Shown here: positions 12,891 through 50,400 of the stretch, piece after piece | Layout: each line of letters starts with the position of its first letter | How positions within the stretch are numbered: position 1 is the first letter of the stretch | The notes under the pieces: generated by a model | What the model was told of the DNA's origin: nothing | The model's database searches: none | The model's input: only the letters and a program-made list of their open reading frames with translations | DNA from: Apostichopus japonicus | Taxonomy: Eukaryota; Echinodermata; Holothuroidea; Aspidochirotida; Stichopodidae | Assembly (NCBI RefSeq): GCF_037975245.1 | Contig: NC_092577.1 | Location: forward strand, 28,063,898-28,127,897 | Direction: 5' to 3' | DNA length: 64,000 bases | Position numbers and translations under genes: made by a program

Positions 12891-13353
12891 TACATGTATG
12901 GCAAGCCATGTGGGACAAACACTGCATAATATATCCGCGTATCATACTGGAATTTATACGCGTATATATTATTAGCCAATCATATGGCTTAAATATATCC
13001 GCGTATTAATTCTAATATATATACACGTATTAATTCGAATATATACACGTATTAATTCGAGTATATACACGTATTAATTCGAATATATACATGTATTAAA
13101 TAAAATACATATGGGGATTAAATCCAATATATGCACGGATTAATTAGAATATACACGAAAAAACATTTCCGCTCTTGCTGTGAACATATACCAACGATAA
13201 ATGTTTTGGCGGGCTTGCGAGATCGCTTCAAAAAGCGAAACTTTACACATGTAGGCTACAACACATGTATATTCGAATTAATACGCGTATATATTCGAAT
13301 TAATACGCGGATATATTATGCGGTGTTTGTCCCACATGGCTTGCCATATACAT
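12891..13353. mobile_element. Foldback element F1 with AATTAAT palindrome array
   Basis: Inverted termini of about 50 bp: the left reads TGGCAAGCCATGTGGGACAA and continues to CCGCGTAT. The right is its reverse complement, ending CCACATGGCTTGCCATATAC. The inside contains direct and inverted copies of a roughly 21-bp unit (ATACACGTATTAATTCGA). This unit is itself largely palindromic around AATT, ACGCGT or TTCGAA. No open frame of note. The terminal core TGGCAnGCCA recurs in the element at 49462-50101. Confidence 0.75.
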
Positions 13354-16300
13354 GTGCATCTAATAAGATGCGGATATGCATTATTATCATAGATAGATGT
13401 GAGGGTTACTATTTTATATATTTTTGACTTTTGACTTCAATGATGACAAATGCGCTTCGTATTATAATAAATGACACCATTGTATGGGCCTGTCTATATG
13501 TACGGAGCACTAACGTAACCTGTCAAATGGCATAAACTGTAGGCTACACTTACATTTTGTGTGCCGCATAAAGGCCTATCAGCCTACATTACACATAATC
13601 ATATAACACTCTTGCTCGGGATGTCGTTATGCCATTGTGCATGTACAACATGATATAATTACAATAATAATGCACTTACTACCACAAATTGATAATTTAT
13701 ATGTCATCTCAGCCTTCGGGCTGAAGGATGCATTTACAATCCAGCCGTTTTGCTATAGGCCTACTTCTTCTATGTGTCACCTGTTGGTGAATAATTATTA
13801 CATAAGGCATATGCTTGTATATATGACACATTTCCCTAGAAGGACTTCTCCGTCGCCATGACGAAGAATATAGGCTTCACGTACCTCGTAGAACCACATG
13901 TAAGCATTCCTTCCGTACATTGTTAAATAGCTTTGGCGCACCTTTTACCGGTAAAAAAAGACTTCAATATAGTTTTCCCCTAAAGAGCCGCACAATATCC
14001 AAAAGTTCGAATTCAAAACTCCATCTTTGATTTTTTTATTTCTTGCAATGGTCGTCTGGATTATTTTATATCACAGATTTAGCCTGCTATATATGCAGAC
14101 TCAATGACTCATTGGTAGATACACGGGTACCAAAAACTAGGCACCGATCAATGTCGGCCGAGCGTGCTTATCACCAAATCATGGCAGAACACCGATCGTC
14201 AAAATGTTCCTCGAATTTGGGGTCAGCTCGAGGCCTTGGGATTAAGAACTGCTTACTACAATTTGTGTAACTCCTTTCTTTTTATTTTTCTTCAAAAAAA
14301 TGGCACAAAAAATGAGAACGCAACGCAAAAGTGAATCTGGAATGTAACTGTTTGTTGCTATCGTTCTGGTTTCAGCATGTTCCTCTAAAGTCTTTCGAAC
14401 GTTACTCTCATGAGCATTTTGTAAATCGAAACCAAATTGGTTACGACGTTTTATTGAAGAAGGGAAAAGAAAGGTTTCGCAACCGTAGTAAAACCGTATT
14501 AAAACAACCCTCGGAAAGAAAGAAGTTTGAAGACGACACCTGCTAAGTTGACAAATACGCTTGCGGGGGTGACAGTAAGTTGACATAAAACATATATCAA
14601 GCACGGATGATACAACGCATCCAAATATCATCTCAGTTGATCTGCAACAGAGGTCATTTGATTCACCCCGAGGTTGCTTCTCAATCTGCTAAATTGGTCA
14701 GGTCAAATTGATATAACCTATGCCATTCGCTGAAAGTCCTGTCCGACGTGCAAAATTCAGACCAGTTTAAGTACACTGTCCAAAATGGAATCATATATAT
14801 GGTTCTGAAGAAAGAATTAAACCGGTCGAAAGAAATGATCAGACCTCGTTGCTTAGGAAGGAAATATATTTGGTGATAAACACGGGCTCGTTTGATCTCC
14901 GCTTCCTGCAGTCTCCACTGTGTTTTATTTTTTATTTTTATATAGCTCCACGGAAAATATATGAATCCAAATAGTGCATGTGAAGCGAATGTCTCCCCGA
15001 CTCTGATGAACGTACGTTACGTACGGTAGGCTACTTTACTAAAGACCCTATACTGCCGGTATATAGCTATATCCTACCATTTACATGAAGCCTATAGACT
15101 TATAACAAGGCTATGAATGATTGTTGTACTAGTAGGCCTACAACGAAATTTGACCAAATGATCCTCAGCTTAGCTTCCGTGAGAAAGAAACCGGCATGGA
15201 TCGCTATATATAGGCCTAATACAAAATGCATAAGAGTCTGCACAAGTCTTCTATTGCAGAAATGGTTTAACGACTGTGCTCGAATTCATGCCGCAGATAT
15301 CACTGGTAGGACTACTTGTAATCGTAAAGGCATCCTATACATGTTCAGTAAACCTTGACGGAGCTGTGTGATGATGCTGTTATTCATGAGAGATTTCTCA
15401 TGAAGTGAATAGACTAGTATTTGACAATACACATCACTGTTTAAACACTTTCGAGCTATAAGCCTATTACCAGCTGAATAGGTTAAACTTATCAGAATAA
15501 ACATGGTTTTAGTCACTGCAGCCTTTCGCAAGTACTTGCAAGGCGTATCCCCTCACCCTTCTTCCCATACTCTCCCCTACCATTACCCTCCCCTCACATA
15601 TTTACTATTCCATATTCTTCCGTCAATCCTATTCCCTACCTCCCACCATGATCCCATGCTTCCCATCGTAACCCATGCCCCCCCCTACCCAGTAAGCCCA
15701 CCTCACTTCCTCTCCCCACACCTCTCCCTTCCTCAATAAATGCGCTCGAACGCAAATGCGTTATCTAATCATTTTCCCTTGGTGGGGTGGGGGGGTAGCA
15801 AGACATTTAAAACAGACAGACTGTTACTACATGAACGTAACAACTATAGGCCTACAGTAGTCTTAATGCATTCAGAAATCGGCCCGACTGGGGGGGGGGG
15901 CGATGTTATTGTAATTGACTACTCCTAGCCTGGCTAAAAATGGCCAAGTCAGTGCGCCTTTATTAAAGAGAAATATTATGCAGTTTTCGTTCGCCATAGT
16001 GTAACTGCATGAATTTACAGGTGAGGATCGGAATATGGAATACAAAATACATAATTTTACCACCTTGTTTTGGAACACAGGTTGCTGGCTGCTTTAAAAA
16101 AAAAAATGAATACAACATGGTGTTCTATACCACTTCGATTCTAGCATGATTGTTATCAAAGAAAAACTGATTAACTGAAATTTAATTATATTAAATTTAT
16201 CTGGACTTGAGCATAACTTCATCAGGCAGACATTCTGATTTATATGTATTACAAATTGGGAGAAGATTTTCCGTTAAAACTTGTTATTTTTGCATGATAC

Positions 16301-17549
16301 TGTCTGAACTACATGAAAGGCAAAAAGGGAGTATTCTAACACATGTTATATAAGATTTCAGTAAACCTGTGAAATGTTACTCTGAGAGGCAATTTTACCC
16401 AACAATGTCTTGGCCGTTTTGATGTCATAATATTACAGGATATTGTAGACAGTATCACAACATGTGAAGTAGTTCTCAAAACATTATACCATTATTATCA
16501 AATAAACCATTTCATGATCTCAATCAAACGAGATTAGAAATTAGAAGGCACGTGAAGGACAATAATACCATTATTGAAGAACGATGTACTTCTTGAGAAC
16601 AAATAAATACATTTTGCAAAACACATTTTCCACCAATCATATATCAAACATCAGCAAATTTATAGGATATTTCTCCCAAGTATATCCGTGACTTTAAATA
16701 AAATATTTAACATGATCCATCTGTTGTAAGGGATTAGTTAACGTCATATATTTACAATATGCTGTATTAACACTGGTATGAAAATATATGGACGGGCAGA
16801 GATGAGGGGGGGGGGGCAGTGGGGAGCCCAGGTAATGAGCTCCCCGAGCAAAGCGTTCCTCAGACATAGCAGATTCGGACTCACTACGACAGTATTCGTT
16901 TGAGCTGTCAATCGGAGCTGCCGACTGGTCACAACGTCCTTAAAGATACATCATTAGTTTTCCCGTATCTGTCGTGAAGAACGTTTCATAAAAGTGCACA
17001 CGTCAGTCAGGACTTCAGGCTTGGGAAAACTTCCACTTTTACCAATTACCAATAACTTGGATCAGCTAAGTTTCTTTGGCAGCCTACTCTCACCCCCCCC
17101 CCCCCCCCGCTTCACAAAACGGTAGTGAAGCAAAAACGGTATCTCTCTGACGAAATCAGAACGACAGCATGTTTAATTTTCTGTGTAAAGGCTCTAACGT
17201 GTCAAATTTCTTCGCGCTTCAAATTTTCAGGAAACATAACATTTCCCAGATTTGTGGTTTCAAGTCTAGCACAGAAGATTCCCTAGGGAATAAAATAAGT
17301 TCTAATTCAATATCTCAAAAAGTTTGATATGTATGCGAATAATGAAGTTCAAGTATAGTTCATGGCATGTATAAAGGAACGTGTATCGCTAAGTATCAAA
17401 TGCATTTCAGCATAAGGCACATCTAATGTTACTTTGTTGAATTCATATATATTACAATCATTGTCATTGTCATTATTGTCAAATGTTTAAAGCCTTCAAA
17501 CAGGCTATGATACAAGCTAATAGCCTTTACAGGCTTATAGCCTATATAG
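13354..17549. other. No recognisable gene
   Basis: Several short open frames, none with domain content or paired splice sites. A C-rich low-complexity stretch lies at 15545-15735. Poly-G or poly-C tracts occur near 15889, 16806 and 17095. Confidence 0.4.
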
Positions 17550-17746
17550 CAGGGGTCCCTAACTGGGGTGCATGAACCACAATGGGGTGCGTGAGTCCAT
17601 CCCAGGGGGTTCGTGAGACGTTTCTGAAAGTCAAAACTAGAGTACTTTTTGTTGAACTAAAATCTGACATATATAATTAATTAAGTACAAAAGTCGTACC
17701 ATTCGATAAACTCTTTTCGCGTTCCATACGCATATGTTGCCATAGT

Positions 17747-19864
17747 CACTGGCGGATGCAGGGCCTTTGTTTGGGAGGGGCCAAAGTGGAATTAGGGTGA
17801 TATGGGGGAGGGGTCTAAGGGGAGGGGCAGGCTCGGCGGAACGGAAAAATTATTGGGGGTGCTAATGTGTGGACACTATCGGTTGGCGCGGAGCGTACAA
17901 GAAAATGCTGTTTTTTTCAAACCCCCAGATGGCCGGAAACGGCACTTCCCGAGTGTTTTATGCTTCGAATACCTACCCCTAGAATATGGGTCTCAAGCCT
18001 GCAATTTCTCAGATTGCACGAAAGTCTGTAAAAACATTGTAATTTGTATATTCGATGGTGTTTTAATAAGAGAGTAGCTATTACTCGAAGTGTACTCGCA
18101 AAGACGTTTTTGAGTGTAGTAAGGGCAGTGGCGGAGCTCGGGGTATTGGTCAGGGGGGGGGGGGGGCAAAAATAGTCTGTAGGGGCGCTTTCGACACTAT
18201 CAGAGCCAATATACGGCTCTGGACACTATCTAAGCGGAGCGCCACCACAGGTTGGCGCGGAGCGGTCAGAAAATTTTTGAGTAAAGACACTCCCTAGATT
18301 GCAGGAAATCACCCTTTCGGGCCTTACTAATTTGCAGATAAACGGAGAATAAATAGGTGTCGTCGCCATTTTGTCGGAAAATTACACCAACAGAATATGA
18401 CAAATGTCAATAGGTATATGAGAGCGCAATAAAATAGTCAATAATCGCGAATAACTAAAAAAGTAGTGAAAAGCTGAAAAGGGCGCCAGCAGTCCATTTG
18501 AGTCCGTCAGGGGGGGGGGGCATCCGCCCCTGACTGTATATATGGACGCTCCGCCACTAAGTAAGGGGATGTTGGAGAACTGGCTGAAATGAGGCAAGTC
18601 ATTGGCCTAAGACGAAGTTGTGTTACGCTTACCGGTACTCACACTAACTTCTTCCACTTTTCACGGGGCGTGAAGACGCGGTTGGGGTGACAATGTGGTC
18701 TATAGCCAGGGGACGGGCTGAGGGTCCCCCAGCAATTACTAAAATTATTACACCTATATAGTATACGTGTGCATCGGACAGATCGACAAGTATGCATTAA
18801 AAATGGGCAGATGCACGTTTCGGAACCTTGGTAAATATTGGGGGGGGGGGGCTTATCATGCATTTGCCCCCTCAACTTTTTCATTGGGGGGCTGAGCCCC
18901 CCAAGCCGCCCCGGTTCCGCCGAAACTGGGAGGGGGTGCCCTCCTCCCCTTTGGAAAATTTTCTATTGCTGAATGCCCTCTGATGCAATTTGGTGCGACA
19001 AAAGTGTACAATGGTGATGTTAATTTACTTCTAAAAAAAAATGTTTCCCAGGTGTAATTTTCTAAAATATTTATGAAACAAAGTTGGGATCATCTTTCTC
19101 AAGAAATTTTATTTCTCATAGGTTATAAATTTCTTACAACCCGCCTGTAACTGCAAAATTGTGTTAAACAGTAAATCCTCATGCTCATACATTTACATAG
19201 CTCCCAACTCTTGAGAAGGCAAATGCTGGTCCATGACACGAATCTCTGTCCTGGGGGAGGGGTATAAGGGGAGGGGGTCCCCCTCCCCTTTTGATTTTTT
19301 TTTTGAATCCTGGTGATGCCTACATGTAAAATGGTGGCACTTAGAAAGGCTTTTGTCACCCAAAATTTTCTGAGAAATATGCATTTTTTTGTGTGTAACA
19401 TCAATAAATTGAATAGTAAGTGATAATTCATTCTTTCCCGTGGCATGAAAATGTTCGCTGCTCGCCCCAATGAAAAGAAATATAGGCTAATTTGAGGTTC
19501 AAATGATGCTGTAAAGGAGGTTTTATACTCTATTATGCTAAATGCTAAAGAAATGATGGTTGCTAAGTCAAAATTTGATGCATTTTTTTTTATGTATACT
19601 TGACAATTACAATGCGGTTTTTTTCGGACGCTTGTGCGGGTCAGCGGGTTTGGGTGTTAGAATGCGGGTCTAATTCCCGCGAATTGCGGGTCAGTTGGGA
19701 GCTCTGCATTTAATTTTAAACCAGAAAACGAAAAGGTTTAGACTAGTCTGGTCACTGCTATTCCTCTCGATTTTTTTAATTTCCAATCATATGATTTAGC
19801 GGATGTTCGGAAACACTTTTTGGCTCACCTTTGGAGGGGGGCCCCCCCCTTGGATCCGCCAGTG
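17747..19864. mobile_element. hAT-type element, 2.1 kb, with nested insertion
   Basis: Termini CACTGGCGGATGCA and TGGATCCGCCAGTG are inverted; both flanks carry GCCATAGT (17739-17746 and 19865-19872). The inside is GC-box-like and G-rich, with GGGGAGGGGTCTAAGGGGAGG-type stretches but no transposase. A separate hAT element occupies 18126-18559, so this element is older than that one. Confidence 0.85.
18126..18559. mobile_element. hAT-type element nested in the 17747-19864 element
   Basis: Begins CAGTGGCGGAGCTCGGGG and ends GACGCTCCGCCACTA; flanked by AGTAAGGG on both sides (18118-18125 and 18560-18567). Same family as 656-1057, inverted: both contain the ATGACAAATGTCAATAGGTA / complementary stretch. 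Poly-G tracts lie close to both ends. Confidence 0.88.
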
Positions 19865-19872
19865 GCCATAGT

Positions 19873-21171
19873 AGTACCGTACCGTGCATGTGATAAATAA
19901 CTGAATTATGAAACAGACACGGGCCGAATGACTTTGGTGAAGTTGGTGTCCGCATGACAGTACGTCGTGAAGATAAAGAGCTGATCTGATTGAAGTTTCC
20001 AAATGAATATTTGTTCATCTCTTGTTTTTTTTCATTACAATATTACACTATGAACTTGATCTTTTACGAAGCACTGTTATGTGTATTATAGTATAATAAT
20101 GACTCAGATCGTGTCTCAAGAAGTTAGGGGTTCGTGGACAACCCTGACATCCACAGGGGGTTCGTGGGGGGATAAAGTATAGGGAAACCCTGGTTTATAT
20201 GAAGACAAACCAAAATGGCTGCTACTGATGACAAAATCTCTGCCGTCACATCAGATGATGGTATCTCCATACCAGCTCTTTCAAAACTTTCAAAAATGTT
20301 TCTGTTTCGCGCGATAAGTGAACCCACAAATACATTTTCTTCAATCTAAGTATATTAATTAGATTGCTCAATAATTGCTCAATGATTGAAACTTAATTAT
20401 TGCAGAAAACTTTCAATTTATAAGATGGTTTATGTTTATAACAGTGATGAGCCATTGTTCATCGTTATATCTTGTGATGACAGCACACAAACCACCGAGT
20501 CTTATATAGTTTTCATCTGACATTAAAATCTATGGCATATATGCTTATAACACAAACATACTCTTACGTCTTCATAGCATATATATTACATTAGTGAAAA
20601 TCGCACTTCATTCCATAGTGAGTTTTTAGAATTTGCATATTTCGATTGATTAACCGTTAAAACTTCGCTTTGTTTATATTCAAAGAGTGATAACACTTTC
20701 ATACTTCATGATGCAGAGGTGATGTTAATTTCATCATTTCTCTGAATCGCTTTAAAACTTGGAGAAGATACTTAACAGTTTTTTAGGCATTTTCGTTTAA
20801 ACTGATTTTGTTAGTGTCTTCCAAGATGTCTAAAAAGCAAGCTTAACGTCAGTCGACCAAATGTTCTTTGAGGTTGTTCGAGAAACAGCCATCAGATTAT
20901 TCGCTCTGCAAACACTATATGTACACCTTCCACTATATGAATTAAAGTATCATGGATAAACAACTAATTCGCCATAAGGATAAAGTTAAAATAAAGGACA
21001 GGTCGTCATGTCGACAATAAACTAGTTTTTTTTTATTATATCTATATTACTATTAATAATTCTGTACCAAATTGTACAGATATATGAAGCCCGTATACAT
21101 CAATAAACATCTCTCAATGTTTATATTATTATTACATTATCATTATGAAGGAGAATGTATAACACCATCTT
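19873..21171. other. No recognisable gene
   Basis: AT-rich. Sequence resembling a hAT right end (AGGGAAACCCTG, ending near 20192) may pair with a left end at 17550, but the flanking bases match only imperfectly. Confidence 0.4.
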
Positions 21172-21245
21172 AGGGAGTGTTAGCTCAGTTGTTAGCGCCG
21201 GTGCCTTTCAATCATAAGGTCCCGAGTTCGAGTCACTCCAAGATT
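21172..21245 (+). repeat. tRNA-like sequence, probably SINE head or pseudo-tRNA
   Basis: It has an A-box-like TTAGCTCAGTTGTTAGCG and a B-box-like GAGTTCGAGTC. GGAGTG near the start pairs with CACTCC at the end. The T-stem does not pair properly and the anticodon loop is the wrong size, so a working tRNA is unlikely. The downstream GTCGTCCAGTTACAGAG looks like the body of a tRNA-derived SINE. Confidence 0.5.
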
Positions 21246-22059
21246 AATGTATGTCGTCCAGTTACAGAGTTGTTGAAAATTGACAATTCATAATCACGGA
21301 AGTTAAAATATGAATATAAGAGACCGACTTCGGTCAGCTTGCGGCTTTGATAAGCTAATGATGGCTTCTTCGCGAGTTCCTGCTTGCAGGAGGATCTAAA
21401 ATACATACATGTTTCGATAAAAAGCGATTCATTATATTGGCCACTCAAAATGGAAATTTAAAACTAAAGGATCCGACACGGTTTTATTGATTTTTTTTAG
21501 ACGAATGGAATTGTGAATAATATCTTTCCTATAAAGGAAGTAATAGAGAATTTTACAGATACAACATAAATGCACGGTTGGATCCAGTTCCGTTTACATA
21601 CACTAATGTGAAACATTTTGTTCTCGACCATTTCAAGTAATAGATATAAACGTAACTTATCATTTGTTTTACATGCATATGACCAACATTCGCCTAAAAT
21701 CCGATATTCAACATAGACTTGTCCTATATACGTACATCTGCACTGAAAGTAAGGAAAGCCTATATCTTAAGAAAATCATGAAATTTCATTTCACAATTTT
21801 TATGATATTTCAATTGTTCTTTTACTTCCTCGGGGCCATGTTGCTGGTTTTGCAGTTATAGCGTATATACTTGATTTATTACAGTACGTCTATACCAAAC
21901 CCAAAGACTTGGTAGAAAATATTGAATATTGTTTGGTTTTAGTTATCGGTTATTTTGTACTTAGTTATTTACAAAATAATTGTATGCGTATAGGCTTAAG
22001 TGTCCTGTCGTATTGGCGAAGATGTACCGTAACTTTATCCATAACTATTTATATTATTA

Positions 22060-22159
22060 TACTATTGTATATTTATATATATCAATTATATATACCAATT
22101 ATATATACCAAATTATATATACCAATTATATATATATATATATTTATTTATATATATAT
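22060..22159. repeat. (TA)n microsatellite, left part
   Basis: Long TATA run with ATATACCAATTAT interruptions. It is split from another TA run (22942-23040) by the hAT element between them. Confidence 0.85.
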
Positions 22160-22941
22160 CAGGGTTCTGCCCAGGGTAGATTGAGTGCCGGCAGGACTAT
22201 CTAAGCGGAGCGCCACCATCAGTTGGCGCGGAGCGTACAAGAAAATTTTGGGTTTTGGAAACCCCCCAGATGGCCGGAAACGGCCCTTCCCGAGTATTCT
22301 GAGCCACATATAGACAGCTTTGAAATGAGATCTCATGTCTGGAATTTTTCATAATTAATGAAAAAAGTTAGGACAAATATCTGGAGCACCAGAGTACAGA
22401 CCAGCCGGTGGTGCCTATTAAGTATACTAAAAAGCAATAGCAATGCACCGTGCACATGGCTGACTAGTTCGTGTAGCCGTCACGTATAGTCACTACGAGG
22501 CGGAGTGCGCTGGTCGTGCCTAATGCAATATGATGTAAATTCACCCGCTACGAAGGTTAACGGCCGTATGTGTACTAGCTAGCTGGATAGTGCCTGTGTC
22601 TCGCGCGATAAAAATAGATATAAATGAAACTATCAAAAGTACGATCGGGAGTTGGAAACGGAAACAGTCATTGGTCTGGAATGCGGAACTCTGGTAATTT
22701 TTACTAAGTATGACACTGTGATGTGTTGGATATTTTGAATTTGAACAGTTATGAACTGGATTTCCCCTGGTCTCAAACAGATTGTTTCTGTACGTTCGAC
22801 CCTCCGGCTATGGAGCTGTGTTTGGAGTTCCTATCGAAAATAAGTGCCGGTCGGAAAAGTCACTCAGGCAGATTGTGGCGGTCGGTAATTCAGAGTGTTG
22901 GTCGGGCCCGACCGGCGCCGACCGGCAGCGGCAGAACCCTG
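22160..22941. mobile_element. hAT-type element inserted in a TA microsatellite
   Basis: Termini CAGGGTTCTGCC (left) and GGCAGAACCCTG (right) are perfect inverted repeats. Flanks read ATATATAT on both sides; because they lie in a TA repeat the duplication is not diagnostic on its own. The inside holds the module GGAGCGCCACCATCAG...GGCGCGGAGCGTACAAG shared with other hAT-type elements here. No transposase. Confidence 0.8.
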
Positions 22942-22978
22942 ATATATATATATTGATATATATATAAATACACATGTA

Positions 22979-23036
<58 letters not shown>

Positions 23037-23040
23037 TATG
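22942..23040. repeat. (TA)n microsatellite, right part
   Basis: Nearly pure TA repeat continuing the array interrupted by the hAT element. Confidence 0.85.
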
Positions 23041-26105: not shown

Positions 26106-27203
26106 TTATTCCAATAAAACATTGGCAAAAGAATTTTGCAAAACCTTCTTTTTATAAAACTTAGCAAAAGTGGATGCATTACTCCAATCTGCAGTGCTCA
26201 GTATTTGTTGAACTGGGACGTTCTTTCCATAGGCTGCAGAAGTTGACGCTGCACGCATACTATGAGCTGTAAATACAGATGTATCAACACCCGATGCTGT
26301 TAATACAGCTTTAATCCACCGACTTAAAGTCTCTCTTGTGATGGTGTCATGCGGTTTTCTATAACTAATAAATAACCTAGAGCTAGTTCGTAGGTTTTCT
26401 GTTTTCTCGATAAAAACCTTTAAAACAGAATATATGCACAAAAGTTCGTCCTCTGAAAACTTATTAAAACATATCTGCATCCCTACATGTCCTGGGCGAG
26501 TCTGCTTCAGCTTGTCGTTAATATAAAACACAAATGATTGTTCTGTTATGTCCATAAAATCCAAATCGAGCAGATGAAGCGTTTGCACCCTTTGTGCCGA
26601 AATTATAGCAGCTAAAATAACCACCTTGTACGTCAGATACTTTAGTGTTAACTCAGCATTTCCTCCAAGTGACTTTACATATTGGAAAACCATAGACACA
26701 TCCCAAACATGACAACGTTGGGGACGAGGAGTTTTTAACTCAAAAACGCCTTTCATAAATCTTTTGATTAGATTGTTTTTCCCTATGTCCTTAGGGATCA
26801 GTACGAATGAAGATAACATGCTCCTTGCAGTGTTAATACCACTGTAACCTAGGCCGGCTTCGTAAAGTTCAACTAAGAAATTAAGGATCTCTTTGAGATC
26901 TGTTTGCATTGGATTAAGGTCCCTTTGACGACAAAACAATAGCCATTTGGATAGGTAAACAAAATATTGTTTTTGGGTACTTGGCCTCCAGGCCGCAAGT
27001 ATAATTTCGGCTGGTTTTGGCGAAATTCCTTGTTCATATAATGCTTGCCGGAAATTAGACACGCTATAAGGCGCATTGTTTTCGAAAGAGGGTGCACCAT
27101 ACTCGTGCCTGATATGGATATTACCTCCTGTGAAGCTGGGAGAAGTAATGGTACCTCTATTAACAGTTCCATCAACTTGACAAACCATGCCTGCGTTGTC
27201 CAT
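26106..27203 (-). CDS. DIRS tyrosine recombinase (YR)
   Basis: 365 codons from the first ATG (27203); the frame is open further upstream without an ATG. The C-terminal half has the tyrosine-recombinase signature: Arg in ISAQRVQTL (residue 205), HSMR (His314, Arg317), a Trp in ADWSN (340) and the nucleophile Tyr350 in AKFYKKK. The N-terminal half includes a SAM-like DNA-binding part (STQKQYFVYLSKWLLFC). It would insert the circular cDNA copy into the genome. The ORF overlaps the end of the RT ORF by about 330 bp in another frame, as is usual in DIRS elements. No stop or frameshift interrupts it. Confidence 0.93.
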   Translation of the reverse strand: MDNAGMVCQVDGTVNRGTITSPSFTGGNIHIRHEYGAPSFENNAPYSVSNFRQALYEQGISPKPAEIILAAWRPSTQKQYFVYLSKWLLFCRQRDLNPMQTDLKEILNFLVELYEAGLGYSGINTARSMLSSFVLIPKDIGKNNLIKRFMKGVFELKTPRPQRCHVWDVSMVFQYVKSLGGNAELTLKYLTYKVVILAAIISAQRVQTLHLLDLDFMDITEQSFVFYINDKLKQTRPGHVGMQICFNKFSEDELLCIYSVLKVFIEKTENLRTSSRLFISYRKPHDTITRETLSRWIKAVLTASGVDTSVFTAHSMRAASTSAAYGKNVPVQQILSTADWSNASTFAKFYKKKVLQNSFANVLLE

Positions 27204-28975
27204 ACAGGAGCGATAAAAAGGCCCGTCGCTTGCTCCTGCTCGACTTTCTGTAAACACCTCCCTATCAAGCTGAATGGAGGAAAGGCATAAAAATTGTGGT
27301 CAGTCCACTTTATAGAAAATGCATCAACGGCATGGGCCAGTGGGTCAAAATGCCACGAAACAAAGCTCGATACTTTAGCATTTTCCTTAGTCGCAAAAAG
27401 GTCAATATCTGGGGTACCAAAAACTGACGTTATATTCAAAAATGTTTTGTTATTTAAAGCCCATTCCGTATTAATGTTGTCACGACGAGATAAACAATCT
27501 GCGATGGTGTTTTGCGTACCTGGAATATGAGCAGCAGATATCCATATATCATTATTTTTACACCAAAGCCAAATTAATTTGGTTACGTCATTACACTGAT
27601 AAGATTTTGTACCCCCCATGTGATTAATATATGACACAGCAGTCATATTATCGGACCGTATACCAACATGGTGTCCTCTAAGAGATTTACATAGGGCTTG
27701 TAGACCAAAATAAATGGCCAATAACTCCAGTACATTAATGTGGAATTTTTGGTGTGAACAACTCCAGAGGCCATTAGCAGTGGGCTGGTCTGTTGTTTTT
27801 AAAACTGCGCCCCACCCTGAGGTACAGGCATCACATTCTAATACCGCACCCACTGGTCCATGGTATATGTGGCAAAAAGCCTCATCTATATTCTTGAGCC
27901 ACCACACCAAATCGAGACAACTCAACGAGGTTAAGGTAGTCTTTGCATTGAAATCACCTCTGGCAGACCTCAACGATTTTATTTTATTACATTCCAAATG
28001 TCTGTAATATAAACGGCCATATGTTACCCCTGGTAAATTGGCCACTAGAATACCAATAACTTCTGCTAACTCTCGAATTGTAATAAACGGAGCATTTAAC
28101 AACCCTTGAATTTTTTGTTTGGTTTTGCATTTTCTTTCTGGAGTTATCGAGACTGTCATAGTCACGGAATTGAGCGTGAAACCCAAGAAATTTATTTCCT
28201 GTTTGGGTAGAATTTCAGATTTTTCATTATGAACAACAAACCCTAGTTCTGAAAACAAAGAAACAGCCGCAAAGACTGCTGTTTGACACTCTGCGAAAGT
28301 GTCCCCTTGAAGAAATGTGTCATCAATATAACCAAGTACTGTATGACCGTTTTTTATCAAAGTAGAAAACACAGGTTTGAGTAATTTCGTAAACACTCGA
28401 GGTGCACATGCTAGACCATTTGGCAGACACGTATACTCGTACAAAACACCATTCCAATAGAATCTCAGATATTTCCTGAAATTATTTTCAATAGAAACAG
28501 AATAATACGCATCCTTTAAGTCTATCGATGCCATAAAACATCCTGGTCGCATTAATTGTAGGACTTTTGGCAAATGGTCCATTTTGAAGTGGCGATATTT
28601 CACAAACTTGTTAAGCGACTTCAGATTTAAAATCAATCTGTAACTCCCGTCTTTCTTGGGAATAAAGAAAATGGGTGACACAAAGTCACCTTTTGATCGA
28701 GAAGTATGTCTGAAAACTCCTTTCTCGAGTAATTTTTTAAACTGTACTTCGTACAACGCATTTGACGTAAAATGAGGAGAAACTACACTTTGGTATGGTG
28801 TTTCCTCAAACTCTATTGTAAGGCCTTTTACTGTTTGAATTACTTCTTGATCTGAAGTTAAAAGTAGCCAAGCAGGCAAAAACTTAGTTAATCGACCTGC
28901 TACTTGAAAATTAGGGTTCTGATTGAAATTTCCTAAATAAGAACCTACCTCACCCTGATTTGGTGAGGTGGACAT
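26873..28975 (-). CDS. DIRS reverse transcriptase - RNase H - DAM-like protein
   Basis: 700 codons starting at ATG 28975, five bases after the gag stop codon (TAG GAGTT ATG). Reverse transcriptase spans roughly residues 60-310: first catalytic Asp in SIDLKDAYY (D152) and the YIDD box (216-219). RNase H spans about 375-500 with D382 (LECDACTSG), E417 (LELLA), D442 (RSDNMTA) and D493. Residues 525-580 (DLFATKEN, VDAFSIKW, FPPFSLI) match the region in DIRS elements described as a phage-like adenine methyltransferase domain. Its FPPF stands where enzymes have D/NPPY. The frame is intact. The last roughly 110 codons overlap the recombinase gene and show no recognised domain. Confidence 0.93.
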   Translation of the reverse strand: MSTSPNQGEVGSYLGNFNQNPNFQVAGRLTKFLPAWLLLTSDQEVIQTVKGLTIEFEETPYQSVVSPHFTSNALYEVQFKKLLEKGVFRHTSRSKGDFVSPIFFIPKKDGSYRLILNLKSLNKFVKYRHFKMDHLPKVLQLMRPGCFMASIDLKDAYYSVSIENNFRKYLRFYWNGVLYEYTCLPNGLACAPRVFTKLLKPVFSTLIKNGHTVLGYIDDTFLQGDTFAECQTAVFAAVSLFSELGFVVHNEKSEILPKQEINFLGFTLNSVTMTVSITPERKCKTKQKIQGLLNAPFITIRELAEVIGILVANLPGVTYGRLYYRHLECNKIKSLRSARGDFNAKTTLTSLSCLDLVWWLKNIDEAFCHIYHGPVGAVLECDACTSGWGAVLKTTDQPTANGLWSCSHQKFHINVLELLAIYFGLQALCKSLRGHHVGIRSDNMTAVSYINHMGGTKSYQCNDVTKLIWLWCKNNDIWISAAHIPGTQNTIADCLSRRDNINTEWALNNKTFLNITSVFGTPDIDLFATKENAKVSSFVSWHFDPLAHAVDAFSIKWTDHNFYAFPPFSLIGRCLQKVEQEQATGLFIAPVWTTQAWFVKLMELLIEVPLLLPASQEVISISGTSMVHPLSKTMRLIACLISGKHYMNKEFRQNQPKLYLRPGGQVPKNNILFTYPNGYCFVVKGTLIQCKQISKRSLIS

Positions 28976-28980
28976 AACTC

Positions 28981-29940
28981 CTATGTCCTCCTTCCACTTC
29001 TCCCGTATGGGCCTGGCGATCTGCCGGAACTCCGGCCTCTGGCTAAAAAATGGCCTCTTCCTCTGAAGCCTCCTCTGCCCCGACGAGAACTCTCCCCATA
29101 CTTGGGCATTACTTTGGCAGCCATTTTATTAGCATCTACAATATCCTTGAGCTCTTTAGAGATGTCATCTCCAAACAAAAACTTAGTCACTGGTACATTT
29201 TGGGAGCACAAGGTTGCAAAATCCCGACTTAGATCTGCTTTGATTAGCTCTCTCCGAGCAAGGTTGAGCTGTAAATTACCTTGTGCCAATAACGCCAAGG
29301 TGTCGAAGAGTCCATGAACGGTCTCTCTTTTTGAGGCCTGTCCTTCCAAAAAATCTTTGATAGTGACAACCACGGCGGTCATACTTTTGACCAATACTGA
29401 CTGCGCTTTTTGGACCTTTATGTCTTTAGACCTAGTCCCTGGCTTTATTTTGTCTCAAATAATTTGGTTTATGCGTGTCGGTTGTAAGATATCACAATTC
29501 TCAGGTTGCTTGTAGGCTCGAACTTTCTCGTTAAGTTTATCGTCAGACAGCTTTTCTGTCATCATTCTAGCAATAAAATCCGCAATTTTAGGCGGCAGAG
29601 CAGGACCTGTATCACCTGCTAAGAAAGGCTCCACAACCGAATCCAGGAGGGTTTCCTCCTCCGGTGTATCTATCACGGACCCAGAATAACACGCATTAAA
29701 AATACTCGATATGTCATCGTCAATAGTATCAAGCCTTGCCCGTTTGGCTTCTGGCTGGTCCAAATAACCTTCGTTTTGAGGCCTATGTTGAACTACCTCG
29801 GATACCATTTTCTTTATGTAATCCGATATTTCAGGTGTTATTCCCGCTGGTCGGGATTCATCAGCCTTTTGCTGTAAAGTGTCTGCATTTTCAGACTCAC
29901 AAAGTAACTCTTCTGAGAAATCAAGCTCCCCAGAATCCAT
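28981..29940 (-). pseudogene. DIRS gag-like ORF interrupted by one TGA
   Basis: The frame runs from ATG 29940 (MDSGELDFSEELL) to TAG at 28981-28983, about 319 codons, with a single in-frame TGA at 29455-29457. Codons on both sides stay in the same frame, so one base change would account for the break. The C-terminus is rich in Arg and Gly (RRGRGGFRGRGHF and SGRSPGPYGRSGRR), as expected for an RNA-binding gag. Gag of DIRS elements is poorly conserved; the identity rests on position and composition. Recoding at the TGA is possible but has no visible support. Confidence 0.75.
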
Positions 29941-30249
29941 GATCAGAATTTTCGAGGCTCGTCGCAATTATGCCTGTCCTCTTTACACTAGCTTTCTGCA
30001 ATTATGCCTAACCAGTTTAACAGACTTGTACAGAGCAATATAAGAGATCCTTATATCGTTCTACTATACACACGTTGGCTATTACCGTAATGAAAATTAG
30101 AGAGCTGCTATCTAACCAGCAACTCAGAGACAAAAAAGCTATTATCTGCTGTGAACAAAGTCGTCCACGTACAGCAGACACACAATAGCGTAGTACTCTG
30201 GCTTAACTAAACCAGTCAATGATGTTGACGGTTCGAAGTCAATCAGCGC

Positions 30250-41400: not shown

Positions 41401-44400
41401 AACTGTGGTAATAGGGTTTTTGTGTTTTTGGTGGTTACTTTGCATTCTACAGTAAGTTAAAGTACCTATTCTCCAAGGCAACACTATAACACCAACAATT
41501 AAGTTACTTTCCTTTGTCAGCAGCTAAGACAGGGAAGACTTGTAGTTCTCCTCCAAACATTGGGATTTGAAATGGTGCATCAAAAGCTTGGTCACTTACA
41601 TAGAACTTAAATTTGTGAATGGTGCCAGTTCAACCTCCAATTTGAAACCGTCTGCAAGATTTGCTGTTATGAGCCTAATTCACTCATGGCATATATAATA
41701 ACGTCCTCTCAAGAGGTGTTAAAGGCATTGAAGACTCGCCCCAAACCGCGTGTGGCCATCTGAAAAGTTAACTTTCTGTTGCTTGCAAGTGACGTTTTGT
41801 TCGTGTCGCTACAAAATGCTGTATCGTTTCTACACTATGCTGTGGGTATTGACCGCAGCTGTATGTACTGACTGTACACTAGTGTCTAATTACAGATGGT
41901 AGCAAGCTGTGTGTGTATTTTCTGGGATCGATGGTGGTGTCTAACACTTCTGTTACACCTCATTCGAAACTAGGTCAGAATCCCAGCATTAGATGTCTCT
42001 TTTTGTGAGAGTCTTCACGCCCTTTAAGGTGTCATATGGGTAGGCTAAGTGTGTGGGTACTTCCTTTGCAAGGTGCTGTGTTTGTTTCACCTCCCTTTGA
42101 CAATCCAATGGTTGGTATCATGCCAACAGAACAACAAAATATCACTAAACGTAGTCAATGCAGAAGCCAAAGCAAAGTTGATTTGGTATGGTTTTAAATT
42201 TCCTATCAGCGATTTGATGACTATTGGTGAAAATCTATAGATAAGTTTTTAAGTGTCAATAATCATGGAGATTGCATGCCATTGGTGATGTGCAATAGAC
42301 TTATAAATATTCTTAACCGTAAGATGAAGAAAGTACCTACTTCTAGTTAATCACAATATAGATTTTGTCACAAGATAAAGAGAACCAGTCGGTCTGCAGC
42401 AGCAACATTACCCTTCCTAGGAATCAATACAATTCAAAGTTAAAACTGGCAATCTGCATAATGCATCAAAATAAGGTCAAAGGGCGATCACTAGGTCAAT
42501 ATGTGATATTCCACAAGGATTTTAAACCAATCATGTGTCCATTAGCTATAGGTTGCATCCAAAAACCTGCCATTCAGTACAAACGGCAGGTTTTTTCCAG
42601 TTGGTTAACTGAGTGATCAGTCCCATCTTTTCGCATCTTAGTTGAGCTGCCTATTTCGTCTATTAGGCAACTCTTCACACAGCTAGTCACCAAATCACTA
42701 TCAGATCAAGGCAGACATGGCAAGGTGTGAACAAATCAACTTTTCTAAACTAACCAGTCTGTTTGCAGAAGAGATCAAGTTTCAGTAAGTTGAGGTCAAG
42801 AGAGCTGAAAAATGCAACCTATGGTTAATGGACTAATTCTCGTCGTAATCCATCTCCTATTATCCGAAGTGTTTTCCGGATCCGAGAATGAGATATCTTG
42901 TCTCCGAACATTCATCTCACCTTTCATCCTGTCTTCCCTGTCTCTCATCCGCTGCAGTCACATATATCATTATTACCTCCACGGCCCAGAGGGTAACAAC
43001 CTCCCAAGATCTAACCAGACCCCCAGCAGAGCCAACAGCCCTTTCCGTCACATCAACATTGTCATCTCACATTACAACAAGGGCAAGCTGTTACAGAAGA
43101 GGAACCTCAGGGACGTCGACGATGACATGCAATCAAAGTTCCTCTCCACTGCGGCAGCAACGTTTGACTTCAGAGCCAGAGTCGAAGGGGATGCGGTGGT
43201 GGAGGGTTCGTTGAGGTACCATCCTTTCCTCTACAACAAGGAGACGTACCCATTGGATAATAGCAACTGGTGTAAGTATAACCTCTTTTCTGTCTTTGGG
43301 GGTGAGTTGGTAGGGCCTGATAGTGGTAGCTTGTAAAGCCTTCCATTTTCATTTTAGTTTTTATTTATTTGATTTGATTTGATTTGATTTTGTCACATGT
43401 AGAAATGCTGCTTTGCGGGTAAATGTTACTGTTTGTCACATGCAAAAATGCTGCTATGTGGGTAAATGTCACTTTGTCACATGCAGAAATGCTGCTATGT
43501 GGGTAAATGTTAGTTTGTCACATGCAGAAATGCTGCTATGTGGGTAAATGTTACTGTTTGCCACATGAAGAAATACTGCTATGTGGGTAAATGTTAGTTT
43601 GTCACATGCAGAAATGCTGCTATGTGGGTAAATGTTACTTTGTCACATGCAGAAATGCTGCTATGTGGGTAAAATGGTAGTCCGTCACATGCAGAAATGC
43701 TGCTATGTGGGTAAATGTTAGTTTGTCACATGCAGAAATGCTGCTATGTGGGTAAATGTTAGTTTGTCACATGCAGAAATGCTGCTATGTGGGTAAAATG
43801 GTAGTCCGTCACATGCAGAAATGCTGCTATGTGGGTAAATGTTAGTTTGTCACATGCAGAAATGCTGCTATGTGGGTAAATGTTAGTTTGTCACATGCAG
43901 AAATGCTGCTATGTGGGTAAAATGGTAGTCCGTCACATCCAGAAATGCTGCTATGTGGGTAAATGTTAGTTTGTCACATGCAGAAATGCTGCTATGTGGG
44001 TAAATGTTACTGTTTGTCACATGCAGAAATACTGCTATGTGGGTAAATGTTACTGTTTGTCACATGCAGAAATACTGCTATGTGGGTAAATGCTTGTTAA
44101 TGAAAACTGGTTATTTTTCACTATGGTTTACAACTTACCATTAGTTTTCTATTGTTCATTTACTTATATCTTTCTAGTTAGTTCATATGTTTTATGGCAT
44201 TTCAGGTTCTGATGCATTTGTGCTTTATTGACAAAGGTCTTTCATACCCAGTAGTGTGATGTTACGTTATGTTAACATAGTGATAATAAGCTTGTCAGTA
44301 TCACTTATTAATTGACTGTTGACAAAATCTAACTCTTTAATGTCACTGAAGGGTGGTACAAAGTTAAGACCATGGATTGCAACGTTAATTCCAGTGCATG

Positions 44401-47400
44401 ACAGACTTCGGTGGCTGCAGTCCAGCCTTTTGTTCCATTTATTGCTTTTATCTTGATGATTTCCCCCTCCCCCCTAGATGCTCCTAGGGATGATGGTTCA
44501 GATGACGATGGATTTCAGCAGGAGGACAGACCAGCGAGAGGCAATCGGCCAATCTTTGATTGCTACTGGAACGGAAGACTAATTCCGTACACCACCGTAG
44601 ACGAGTAAGTCGAGTGGATAGTGTGAACACACGTCTCACAGTTTATACTCTCAGCTTCATAGCTAATGTATCAAATCTATAGTCTGCATTGCATGTACAG
44701 ATAGTAAACCAGGACTGATCCTTTTTTTACTTTTCACAACCTCTCAGGGTTAAAAACCAAGTAGTTGCTAGTTGCATGATTGTGATGAGAAGTAAAAAAA
44801 TAAAACCCCTCCAAGAAATAAAAAACAAACAAACAAAAAATGCGGAAAGTAAATGATTGAGGATATCATAACTCCAGTCAATAGGGCAGTTCATGGAATG
44901 AGTTTATCAAATACGACAGACCAATTTCAGGTGGAATTTGTGCACAATTTTTCAACATTTTAACATTTTGCTGCTTCACTTTTGATACTAGTGTAATAGT
45001 CACATGTATGAGATTAACTTGGATGTTAAAATATAATTTACTGATATTAACAGAAATACTTTTGTTTTCAAGTTGGTATTGCAAATTTCAGATGCCCGAA
45101 GTTTGCATCATGCTACTATAGCTACCATTTTATGCACAAAATCTCTGCTCTGCCTTTTCGTAAAGCAGTTTACCGAATTTGAATATGTGATCTTGCGAAT
45201 ATGCGATGATATTGCAATCTGATCATTAAATGGACTGTGCCAGACATATTCTAAGGAGGGTATCCTTGCTCGGCAGATTCGATTGGTGTGGGGTTCCTAA
45301 GAGGATGGGTAACATCCCTATCCAATGCTACAACAGAGTGTCGGGCGTACTCTGGACGAACGATAAATTTCAAGTCAGTACAAACAAATTGACCTTCCTG
45401 GATTTGGGAGTCAGGCTGAAGGAGAAGTCGACTTACTTTGAAAGAATCACCTCTGGACAGGTAAACAGTTTCTTAAAGGTCATGGGTTTAAAATTAATTA
45501 AAAGTTGAGTAAAATTTTAAAACTTTATTTGGTAGAAATGAAAAGCTATACGAATTTGCTTGATCTATGGCAGTCTTTGTTTGCGTATTAATGAATTTAC
45601 ATAACTATACATTAGCGTGAGGGATTTTACCCAAAACTTTACGAGTTGTGGGTACCCATCCTGTATGCATCACGTTTCAAATTTTTAACAGGTGTGGCCT
45701 ACCATTCTGAGTGGTAAAATAACTCAAGTCACGGTACTGTCTCTGTGGAGGATAGCACGATTTTATTTCCTAATTCCTTGTAGAAAAGTGTTCATGGAAA
45801 GTTGCCAAAGGTACCTTTCTAGTAGTTCAGTTCAGATTCACCATTTTATTCCCAAACATTGAGGAGAATTAAGTGAGAAAACTGCATATCTCAGTCAGGA
45901 AAAATGCTTTGAGGTTCACAGATAATTGTCGAGTCATGACTGTCCACTATTTTGATTTTGTAACATATAGCGCTGTTATTCTGATTACTTTTACAGCTTT
46001 AGTCTTGTCAATTAGAAAATTTGACAGTTAAAATGCAGTTAAAGAGGTGGTCAAGTCTGAACAAATATGACCTTTTCTTTTTCATTGTGTGTATGTTGTC
46101 CTAGAGACAACCCTAAAAAACAAAACTCGCCCCCTCCAAAAAAAAAAAAAAACCTTTCCTGGAGACAAAATCAGCAATAATATAATCACTGTAATATATA
46201 TTTGCATAATGTAGTGAGATAAAGTGTTTGTTCAGTATTCAATCAAAAAAAGTTGCAAATAACTGCAAAATAACTGGATGGTCTCCATCACTTTTAACAT
46301 ATTCCAAGTTTCCTTGTAGCACAACAGATCCCTCGTAACACGACAGATCCCTCGTAACACAACAGATCCCTCGTAACACAACATATCTCTCTCCTGTTTT
46401 GTTTCGCAGCCCCAACGGTCCATCCATCGTAAATTTTCCGACTGGCTGAGAGACTGCCACGAGAGGTGCGATAAGCAGGTGCTCTTCCAAGGATTTAAGG
46501 AATGTATCACTCGGACGGACGTAGCCATCAAGAAGCACCAGTACCCTTGGTCAGTGTTTGAAAGTATCGTCTGGGAAGGTAAACAGTTCACTGCTGGACA
46601 ATTGGTAGGTGGCTAAGTTTATATCTCACATTTCTATTTCTCTTTCTGTAATTTTTGGAAAAGAGTCTTGGCACTTCTGTGTTTTTGGAGTGTAAGTATT
46701 CCTTTATTTCTTTTAACGGAAGACCCACTCTTTGTACCATATTCGTCCTCAGGTTCGAACTACCAGGACTAATCCCATAATCTACGGCACCATCAAAAAC
46801 TTCCTTCTCTTTGGGTTTCACGATGGAGATGTCTTTGCAACGGGCGGTGAGATGGTTCTTATTCAGGTAATAATTCCTGGTCAATGATCTCATTGCATTT
46901 CTTGTTGTAAACTTTGCTTAGGTACAACCGTCCAAAATCTAATAGCAATTATACAGGGACACCCCCTAATGTCTGAAGATTCCTAAAAAAACAAAAAAAA
47001 AAACAAACAAATATTATTATTATTATGATTATTATTATTATGATAATTATTATTATGATAATTATTATTATGATTATTATTATGATAATTATTAAATGTT
47101 ATTATTATTCTTTCTTCCGCTGTCGACTTAGGAACCAAGCATGCTGTATAATGAACTGAAAACGTTTCCGTTGTCGAGGCTGGACAGAGCAGCGGGGGAT
47201 CGTGCAATGAAGAAAGGAATGGACGAAGAAGAAGGAAAGTTAGTATGAAATGACTTAAAGCAGACGGGTGTGTGCTTTGAAGTAACTGGCTTCCAAATGG
47301 TTCAAAGCAAACAGTCGCATTTGTCTCAAAGCGTTCAGCTTCGTTTTCTTGAAAGCTGCCGGCTGCATTGGACCGAAATCAACTGGTAACAATTGCATCG

Positions 47401-50400
47401 AAAGCAATTATTTCTGTTTTCATCAAAGCTACCGATTATGTTCGCTTTAAGGCAACCAGTTGAGTTTGCCATTAGGCAACTGGTTATGTTTACCCCTCAA
47501 GGCAATGGGTTATTTTGCATAAAGCAGCGGGTTGTGTTTGCTTTAAAGCATGGTTTGTTAATTTGCTTTAAAGCAACCAGTTGAGACTGCCTCAAGGGCA
47601 ACTGGTTATGTTTGCATCAAGGCAACTGGTTAGTTTGCTTAAAGCAGCCGGTTGTGTTTGCTTTAAAGCTGTGGTTTTGTTTGCTTTAAAGCAACCAGTT
47701 GAGATTGACTCAAGGCAACTGGTTATGTTTGCATCAAGGCAACTGATTAGTTTGCTTAAAGCAGCCGGTTGTGTTTGCTTTAAAGGAACCAATTTCCCAT
47801 GATTCATTGTCAGATAAATTGAAAATTTTAGATTTATTCTGTAATATCTGTTCCTACCTGCATTTATCGTCCCTTAATTAGGATATTTTTTTGCTTCAGC
47901 TCATCATTCCGTAAAATTAATTACACAATGGCTTCATTTTGTGCCTTTTTTGTTGTTGTGTTCCTCAAGACTTCCCCATTCACTGCTGGTGAAGTGGCCA
48001 GATGGTAACGAGGTTAAACCTGGAAGTAAGGTTCCTGCTGGTTCAGTTATTGGTAAGCATTCGTTTTATTCACTTGTAAACTTCCAAATTATTCTTTCTT
48101 TCTGTCAGAACTAACATGATCAAAATCATATTTAAGTTAATATCAGATTAATTTAAAGAAACTATTCACATCATTACAATTAAATTTATCTTAAATTTAA
48201 ATATTTGATATTTTGATGTGTTTCGGGTGAATGCTATGAAATATTTTTTCTCTCAGACAAAATCGTGCATTTAGCTTACGTAGTCACTGAAAATATCTTC
48301 TTTAAAATATTAAAGCTTATATCTTTCAATATTTGATTACTTTGATGTGTTTTGGTATCTTTATTATATATAATATAATATATATAATAATATATAAGTA
48401 CTCTTTCTCCCTCCCAATGCTCATCATCTCCCACTCGCCTGATATATAGTACATGATAACAACATGATATTTATTAACTTCAGTACTGGTTTGTTCTTCA
48501 CATGATAATTCCATATCATTTTCTTCCAGCTGATACTTTTGTTAAGAATATGTTGCATTATTATTATTCATATTTACTTCTTTTGTCAAAACAAAAATCA
48601 GGTGATATTCAAGTCCAGCTTGTAAACAAGAAAGGGGAAGAGATCGTTAAGCTGCCAAACACAAACACAGCTGCTAAAAGATTCTTGATGGAACAAATAC
48701 TGATTAAACATAGTAAGCAGTCTTTGATATGATTTATCTGTTTCTTTTCCTGGGACAAAAACAAGTCAAAACTGCTTAGTTCCACTCCCAATTGTCAATG
48801 TTATGGCAGTTTTCTGCAACCATTTTAAGATCTGATAGTAAAAACATATTTTCTGTCATAAACCCGCTCTTTCAGAAGTTTGCATGAAAATAAACGTGAA
48901 AAGTGAACATTTTTACCATTTTCCTAATGCTTTTATTAATTTCTGTCATGTTAACATATAGTTTGGTTCCTGTTTGATACTATCATAGTTATGTAAGCTT
49001 CTATAATTCTGATTCCTGATTTAAAAAGTTCATCGTTTGCAACATTTTGTCAAGCATTGTCTGCAACACTAACCGATAATAATGTCCTTCTATCATGTTT
49101 CATTGGAGTAACATGAATGTTTGAGTTTGGTGAAATTTCATAAAGCTGGTGAAAAGAAAAACATACTGAATGATATCACCATAGCAACTAAATGGCAACT
49201 ACAGATACAAACTGCTGTAAGTGGATATTCATGGTTGGGAATTGGTTGCGCCAAACATTTGTTTAATATCCATTGCTACCGTTGGCTTTTCCACAGCTTG
49301 TAAGACATGAAATTTGTCATCAATACAGGAAGGATATATTGATCTTGATATTTATTTTGATAAATTTAAACAGGTTCTGTTGGAGATTCCAGGATTGTTT
49401 ATCACATCAGCCAACACAACAAGCTGTGGGCTCATTGGTTCCATCGTATAGGTAAGGGATACTACGTACATGGCAGGCCATATGTGCAATAATTCCATAA
49501 ACCAAGTTTGTCGCCATTAAACTCTGTTTTTTCGATTGATAAACTCAGTTTATCAAATGGATAACCGCGTTTTTCGCGATAAACTCAGTTTATCGAGCGA
49601 AAAGCAGGGTTACCTCGATAAACTAAGATTATCGGCAATAAACCAAGTTTATCAAATGGGAACTATGTTTTTCGCTCGATAAACTAAGGTTTTCGATAAT
49701 CTCTGTTTATCAATAAACTGAGTTTATCGATAAACCCAGTTTATCGATCGATAAACCAAGTTTATCGAATTGGTTATGGCACGCCACATGTGCAAAAATT
49801 TGATAAACCGAGTTTATCGCCGTTAACTCTGTTTTCGATCGATAAACTTAGTTTATCGATAAACTCAGTTTATTGATCATAAACCGAGTTTATCGAATTG
49901 GATATGGCATGCCACATGTACAATAATTCGATAAACCAAGTTTATCGCCGTTCACTCTGCTTTCCGCTCGATAAACTGAGTTTATTACGAAAAACATGGT
50001 TATCCAGTCGATAAACTCAGTTTATCGATTGAAAAACAGAGTTTAATGGCAATAAACTCGGTTTATTAAATTATTGCACATGTGGCTTGCCATATACGTA
50101 GGGACTTTAGGGGAGGAATCATGATAAGTCTGACAAATACTGGGAAAGTACAGAATGAAATTCTCTCCCTGATCTCTTGCTGTTCAAAGTTGGTTTAATT
50201 AACATCATCCTGCTATGAAAGTGTGATTATATTATGAAACTTCTTACTAATGAATAAAAACAAAAAATGCACAGATTATCAACTGTATTTAGAAAGATTG
50301 TAATGACAAGCATAGCTGCTGGGGTTATCATGTTGAGAATATTAAATTCTGATGTCAGATATATAATATAATCATTCTCTTCAGCACCTTGTCTCATTTG

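Follow-up and report, generated by a model that had tools for sequence, protein, structure and literature searches.

In a 64,000-nucleotide stretch of the genome of the holothuroid Apostichopus japonicus (GCF_037975245.1; contig NC_092577.1, here C17:28063898-28127897, in an assembly of 671,581,487 bases and 35 contigs), which we refer to as the window, two foldback elements termed F1 and F2 have similar inverted termini and unrelated arrays of short palindromes between them. How, then, can elements with one kind of end hold such different interiors, and what moves them? From the copies of both elements and from their transposase-coding relatives, we consider it highly likely that F1 and F2 are non-autonomous members, of the foldback or miniature inverted-repeat transposable element (MITE) kind, of an IS3EU-type radiation with family-specific arrays, and that they arose by loss of a coding middle.

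Structure, copies and mobility of F1 and F2

F1 is a 452-bp element (12897-13348, forward strand) with tips TATGGCAAGCCATGTGGGACAAACAC, in which ACGCGT-like and TTCGAA palindromes alternate in 22-bp units, and it lies between two copies of a 6-bp target-site duplication (TSD), TACATG (12891-12896 and 13349-13354). F2 measures 626 bp (49469-50094, forward strand), its interior is made up of GATAAACnnnGTTTATC palindromes, and its 6-bp TSD is TACGTA (49463-49468 and 50095-50100). The first-pass annotation was largely right to call both foldback elements, while its boundaries were too wide by these target duplications. The inverted arms span 46 nt with 98% complementarity in F1 and 70 nt with 89% in F2, and the single-strand folds are far more stable than those of shuffled sequences (z of -17.1 for F1 with 100 shuffles, and of -20.8 for F2, taken as 49468-50095, with 20). 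Near-palindrome centres are clearly in excess in F2 (13 against a shuffle mean of 0.4 and maximum of 2), but F1 alone is weak by this count, its five centres equalling the shuffle maximum of 5 (mean of 0.9; 60 shuffles in each case). Moreover, the loose ACGCGT-like motif used for F1 is also found four times in F2. Neither element contains a stop-to-stop open reading frame (ORF) of at least 110 aa, in keeping with the earlier statement that no protein is encoded.

The 16-nt core TGGCAnGCCAcatgtg, formerly assigned to both elements, turned out to be F2's alone in the window: with up to two mismatches it occurs five times, four of them in F2, none in F1, and one elsewhere (62345). What the tips have in common is TATGGCAAGCC(A), followed by ATGTGGGACAAACAC in F1 and AYATGTGCAATAATTCGATAAAC in F2. 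F1 and most of the copies printed have the termini TATGGC..GCCATA, while the left end of F2 reads CATGGC, and the F2 left tip (CATGGCAGGCC) differs from the family tip TATGGCAAGCC at two positions. As had been noticed before, the terminal block recurs inside F2. Here, one internal end block (TATGGCACGCC..., with C where most tips have A) opens an array module at 49775-49902, and another (TATGGCATGCC) begins a stretch that runs through the right tip (49903-50094; both on the forward strand).

Both elements have many copies. A 26-nt pattern for the F1 tip (up to three mismatches) gave 495 and 490 matches on the two strands versus 0 and 0 for the reversed pattern, and the F2 tip (up to two mismatches) gave 63 and 60 versus 0 in the control. 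The genome search proposed earlier with the TGGCAnGCCAcatgtg core (up to one mismatch) likewise returned 189 and 150 matches versus 8 and 6 for the reversed pattern. In a BLAST search with F1, the first 42 rows, headed by the window copy, were full-length (query 1-452) with 89-100% identity, though these are skewed to similar copies because scoring was limited to the top 40 of 726 candidates. From exact tips alone on C1-C5, 23 F1 elements of 379-491 bp could be paired by hand, whereas 25 hand-paired F2 elements ranged from 91 to 1025 bp (in both cases from the rows printed, with unpaired rows left out). F1 thus looks uniform and F2 is modular. In addition, a few F1 ends have a purine next in place of the usual pyrimidine (four and four, versus 0 in the control), one of these being L008.

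Target duplications were counted in 42 paired loci among 48 entered, the unpaired six being L026, L032, L034, L038, L039 and L059. The 42 include three loci from the search for further ends described below (L070, L078 and the F1 relative L080) and two of the coding family A (L090 and L091); the L025 pair probably involves an internal block, and in L018 one F1 interrupts the tip of a second. A 6-bp TSD was exact in 29 of the 42, had one mismatch in six and two or more in seven, a count that favours matches, as each locus was represented by whichever end pair had the fewest mismatches in the TSD. At other lengths, exact flank matches numbered none at 3, 5 and 7-10 bp and one at 4 bp. Positions 3-4 of the duplication are CG in 26/42 and CA or TG in 9/42.

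More directly, the flanks of one F2 copy (L023, on C22) match the window across their junction at 17638-17550 (reverse strand) in 83 of 90 positions. This empty paralogue of the repeat that hosts L023 has a single CACGCA, and L023 has two, one on either side of its element, which confirms precise insertion for this one F2-family copy. L023 was the one copy whose flanks matched the window in this way among 36 pairs with exact TSDs that were joined and set against just the window and the fetched loci, and the repeat that hosts it is present in many copies (its left flank gave 1074 first-look candidates, of which 40 were scored). The TSDs and this empty site bear out the mobility supposed at the outset. 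Two further loci, L010 and L015, read TSD-F1-TSD-F1-TSD, an identical 6-bp duplication flanking the two copies and separating them, which suggests that a second copy used the duplicated target, and hence repeated use of one target.

Transposase-coding relatives and superfamily

This genome contains 143 matches to the Pfam integrase core rva_4, whereas 14 control genomes contain none; dozens of the 143 lie on mid C17, at about 15-25 Mb. We examined 18 rva_4 loci (twelve, L041-L052; L133, a relative of family B on C1; and five, L134-L138), several with extra flank. Five of them have upstream the tip TATGGNAAGCC and define the coding families A, A2, B, D and E. In four of these families, a long palindrome array is found just inside the tip, composed of TGATATCA in A and A2, which are related, of CTTAAG in B and of AGATATCT in E. 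Counted by locus, arrays occur in five of the 18, namely those of A, B, A2 and E and the C1 relative of B, the last without its tip. The remaining 12 have neither tip nor array in the fetched stretch, save for the tips of separate short elements; such elements near rva_4 loci comprise one F1 and one A copy in L041 and F1-like copies in L123.

Family A is the best represented. Its tip starts with TATGGCAAGCCGTTTTAC and reads TATGGCAAGCCGTTTTACTTTTTATTCG in full, and the genome holds 123 and 122 such ends (up to three mismatches) versus 0 in the control. Hand pairing of exact-tip rows gave 36 elements of 438-26,032 bp, of which 21 are 2.8-3.3 kb, five about 9 kb and four over 20 kb. All four of the last enclose an rva_4 match, and two of them, on C12, have common flanks and are probably one duplicated insertion. 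The C16 copy, with the TSD CGCCCG, contains a HECT-domain gene together with exons for a helix-turn-helix and for rva_4, and there are 26 TGATATCA palindromes in its first 647 bp. When five ORFs of this one element were scanned against Pfam, they matched rva_4 and rve plus a helix-turn-helix, with no HHCC domain among the matches. A search of solved structures with the family A core gave no meaningful match (best E of 0.85). As observations in their own right, a HECT ubiquitin-ligase-like gene resides within an IS3EU-type transposon (L054:518-1612, reverse strand, family A, C16), and the five elements of about 9 kb have exact tips without a listed rva_4 match (C2:30962565-30972017, C3:8335952-8345069, C3:26879585-26888691, C4:3235150-3244097 and C15:25606372-25615473).

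Most telling are two array-only MITEs of family A, L090 (468 bp, TSD CGACCG) and L091 (438 bp, TSD CGTGCG), which consist of tip, array and tip between exact TSDs. They carry the tips of a 20.8-kb coding element of the family and show how elements like F1 and F2 can arise, as they have the layout of F1 and F2 together with an identified coding relative. They resemble ordinary deletion-derived MITEs in having the tips of a coding relative, but differ in that the remnant is a subterminal palindrome array; F2 differs further in having tip blocks inside its array.

The other coding families were read from fewer loci. Family B (C16:5809280; tip TATGGCAAGCCGTTTTAACATTTACC) has the same tip start as A, with 23 CTTAAG palindromes and none of A's, and another B locus, on C1, shares that array, its tip lying beyond the fetched range. 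Family E (C17:16847276; tip TATGGAAAGCCATTTTAACATTT) has AGATATCT and GAATTC palindromes, and A2 (C12:2795255) an A-like tip with 17 TGATATCA. In family D, the tip TATGGCAAGCCGTCGGGG follows GTCGTG and lies 3.7 kb before an rva_4 match (C17:23449281), with a helix-turn-helix and middle exons read by eye between the two; its one-sided NNCGNN flank is as in F1 and F2.

Taken together, TA..TA termini, 6-bp TSDs, tips of the fungal type, and coding relatives with an integrase-like DDE core and no HHCC (in the family A ORFs scanned) fit IS3EU. Members of IS3EU are described with TA..TA termini and, in most cases, TSDs of 6 bp (PMC10045372), and fungal members as ending TAYGG..CCRTA (PMC12730594), the likeness to IS3EU/GingerRoot here being TATGG..CCATA. 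Family-specific palindrome arrays and array-only derivatives form the difference, as they are not described in the portions of PMC10045372 and PMC12730594 that were available, and PMC10045372 makes no mention of palindromes. Similarly, our literature search, with most subscription papers and Repbase outside its reach, did not find palindrome arrays in IS3EU. F1 and F2 are probably, as far as these partly available sources go, new members of a known superfamily, with an anatomy of constant tip, swappable array, array-only elements and presumably silenced internal tips that was not found described. The first-pass annotation had known of no named family that fits, a view that the match to IS3EU does not support.

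Other superfamilies agree less well. IS481EU would be expected to have TSDs of about 4, 15 or 25 bp (PMC10045372), and P or Galileo foldback elements 7-8 bp, compared with 6 bp here. Galileo, which belongs to the P superfamily, makes duplications of 7-8 bp and contains tandem repeats in direct orientation (PMC4168063); it is alike in its long inverted repeats with internal repeats, whose length varies, also by tandem repeats, but the units here are palindromes and the duplications 6 bp. Polinton/Maverick elements, which are large and encode a protein-primed DNA polymerase, have the same 6-bp duplication, but F1 and F2 are too small for them; family A reaches 20-26 kb, with its interior read in part (L052, L053, L054 and L126). 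Among foldback-type elements generally, Drosophila FB and sea urchin TU included, long inverted repeats can hold internal repeats. Tetris reportedly is another of this type.

Modules, internal tips and palindrome arrays

The modular build of F2 is plainest in two free-standing 193-bp elements, L099 and L100, which have their own exact TSDs (CACGGT and GACGTG) and align tip to tip with 49903-50094 at 91% identity, near-gapless. Of 20 short loci aligned to F2, 14 fall at 435/436-626/627, two at 308-627 and four elsewhere; such alignments can be forced by end homology, and we place weight on L099 and L100. L112-L114 and L116 represent fragments of copies that are longer or damaged. In 41 F2-family loci, the window copy included, the upstream context AATTGGATA or AATTGGTTA (up to two mismatches) marked out 30 blocks as internal. 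Here, the variable base of TGGCANGCC is C in 24, G in three, T in three and A in none, versus A in 71, C in six, T in three and G in one of the remaining 81 tips and unclassified blocks, some of whose non-A cases are internal too, with one being the left tip of the window F2. This contrast suggests that a working tip needs A at that position. Moreover, the internal blocks recur across copies in one upstream context (TCGAATTGGATA) and, since it is common to the copies, look inherited. On this reading, tip blocks in F2 became part of the repeat unit; they persist in long copies with C, G or T for A, a change that would weaken them as ends. The earlier idea that the F2 array grew by copying an end plus palindromes is supported in part, as modular growth.

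A common tip with unrelated arrays proved to be a wider pattern than the two elements first noticed, extending to transposase-coding members with other arrays and to further short ends. A pattern meant to exclude F1, F2 and A (CGNNTATGGCAAGCCNR) found 36 such ends (17 and 19) versus 0 for the reversed control, one of which (L080) is still an F1 relative. In 19 of the 36, at least two GATAAACnnnGTTTATC-like sites (up to three mismatches) occur in the first 350 bp, where base shuffling expects 0.00-0.12 per end; therefore, the arms of the F2 palindrome are common to many relatives. The 41 F2-family loci themselves hold 181 perfect F2-type palindromes with the same arms and mirrored centres, and these centres are family-specific: TGA, TCA, TCG or CGA in 140 of the 181, against CAT or ATG in 25 of 28 around L068, a 2.5-kb element with the exact TSD CACGTC.

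Weighing the explanations

It was first supposed that F1 and F2 belong to a single diversifying family whose copies, once inserted, each amplify an internal palindrome of their own. The common tip with unrelated arrays and the 91-1025 bp spread of the 25 F2 pairs would suit this, but the 42 best F1 rows share one interior over their full length, the 23 tip-only F1 pairs are all of similar size, the same palindrome arms run through 181 sites in 41 F2 loci and reappear in 19 of the 36 other sampled ends, and the internal F2 blocks look inherited. Private amplification by each copy is consequently already largely refuted, and we consider it very improbable; the first interpretation was, overall, half right and is partly supported. 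At the opposite extreme, the tips might have converged, with F1, F2 and the coding elements belonging to unrelated families that share little beyond an 11-bp tip, a 6-bp CG-containing target and a layout (as holds for F1, F2 and A). That the same tip and CG target accompany 36 further ends versus none in the reversed control, and that the cores of A and B, both with this tip, are 52% identical over 183 aa, makes convergence the least probable account, and scarcely credible.

A different objection concerns what the arrays are for. They may be kept as single-strand hairpins or cruciforms that serve as a substrate in excision or replication, and not as double-stranded protein sites, and the very stable folds of both elements would agree with that. 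Such stability, however, is expected of any inverted array, only 13 of 82 sites in family A have complementary bases on the two sides of the TGATATCA core, versus 22.2 by shuffling, the opposite of stem conservation, and the precise 6-bp TSDs point to an ordinary DDE transposase. Hairpin substrates thus appear unlikely, if less so than either account above.

We therefore favour an IS3EU-type origin by coding-middle loss. In this scheme, the tip TATGGNAAGCC is taken as the strand-transfer site, giving the 6-bp duplications at usually CG-containing targets seen for F1, F2 and family A, and just inside it would lie the long family-specific array, whose short palindromes come in units of about 20-22 bp, as in four of the five coding families. 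Loss of the coding middle would let two arrays meet as tip, array and tip, the arrangement seen for family A. Since they are tandem repeats, the arrays can expand and contract. They adjoin the tip, on both sides in elements whose two ends were read, and differ by family, and we predict that they are binding sites for each family's own transposase: dimers may dock there via the helix-turn-helix domain, while the conserved integrase core would recognise the tip and the array would give family specificity. Neighbouring palindrome centres are spaced by 10 or 10.5 bp in most cases in A (33 of 39) and in 10 of 19 in B.

As for the mobiliser, F1, F2 and D have CG or its decay product at the target centre, and an enzyme like that of D, rather than of A or B, more likely moved F1 and F2, judging by the targets. 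The CG of family A is at the inner edge of the TSD in all five distinct cases (CGCCCG, CTCCCG, AGTACG, CGACCG and CGTGCG), as it is at the edge in B (CGAACC) and E (CGCACA), each read on one side; CGCGCG in A2 is uninformative.

Several observations weigh against parts of this scheme. Because of that CG at the edge and not at the centre, A or B is probably not the mover of F1 and F2. In D, the tip is tied to rva_4 by proximity, the right end is outside the stretch read, an opposite D-type tip lies 54 bp to the left, and only two short ACGCGTA repeats with no long array are found inside the tip; as D is a coding relative with the F1/F2 type of target, arrays are not universal. None of the 18 rva_4 loci proved to be a coding partner that carries the array of F1 or of F2; among them, F1-type units occur only in the short elements of L041 and L123 and the F2-type array in none; as the stretches around these loci are incomplete, the partner may lie further off. 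Helical-turn spacing is not general either, with two 11-bp pairs in F1, mostly 20-21 bp in L068, and 8.5 and 10.5 bp in F2. Between A and B, identity is 52% in the core (183 aa), 58% in the middle exon, 42% in the helix-turn-helix and 20% in the N-terminal exon ORFs, a divergence that counts only slightly for a protein that reads the array, and the docking role itself is argued from sequence. Finally, that Pfam PF24764 (rva_4) corresponds to the Repbase IS3EU core is our assumption.

A broader scheme of split recognition, which we regard as possible, if doubtful, would have the catalytic core read the near-invariant 11-bp tip and a fast-changing DNA-binding domain read an exchangeable array in which palindromes alternate, in the clearest families at roughly one to each helical turn. 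New families would then appear by switching array and reader together, a lock and key that bars cross-mobilisation, and the internal C-for-A tips of F2 would be ends that have been silenced, so that an array with several tips can persist as a single transposon.

Elsewhere in the window, an exon matching SMCHD1 (PF22899) is found at 42809-43336, with F2 about 6 kb beyond, and F2 may be within an intron of this gene. Within 26106-29967 on the reverse strand, reverse transcriptase, RNase H-like and Dam methylase domains share a frame, a second frame encodes a tyrosine recombinase (phage integrase) domain, and we take the whole to be a DIRS-like retrotransposon.

For annotators, the elements described here account for a class of gene-less foldback repeats. 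A little-studied superfamily also gains a concrete anatomy, that of a constant tip, a family-specific palindrome array and a CG-containing target. With A, A2, B and E as natural sets for swapping DNA-binding domains and presumed arrays, these families would allow a test of how transposase specificity changes at a fixed cut site.

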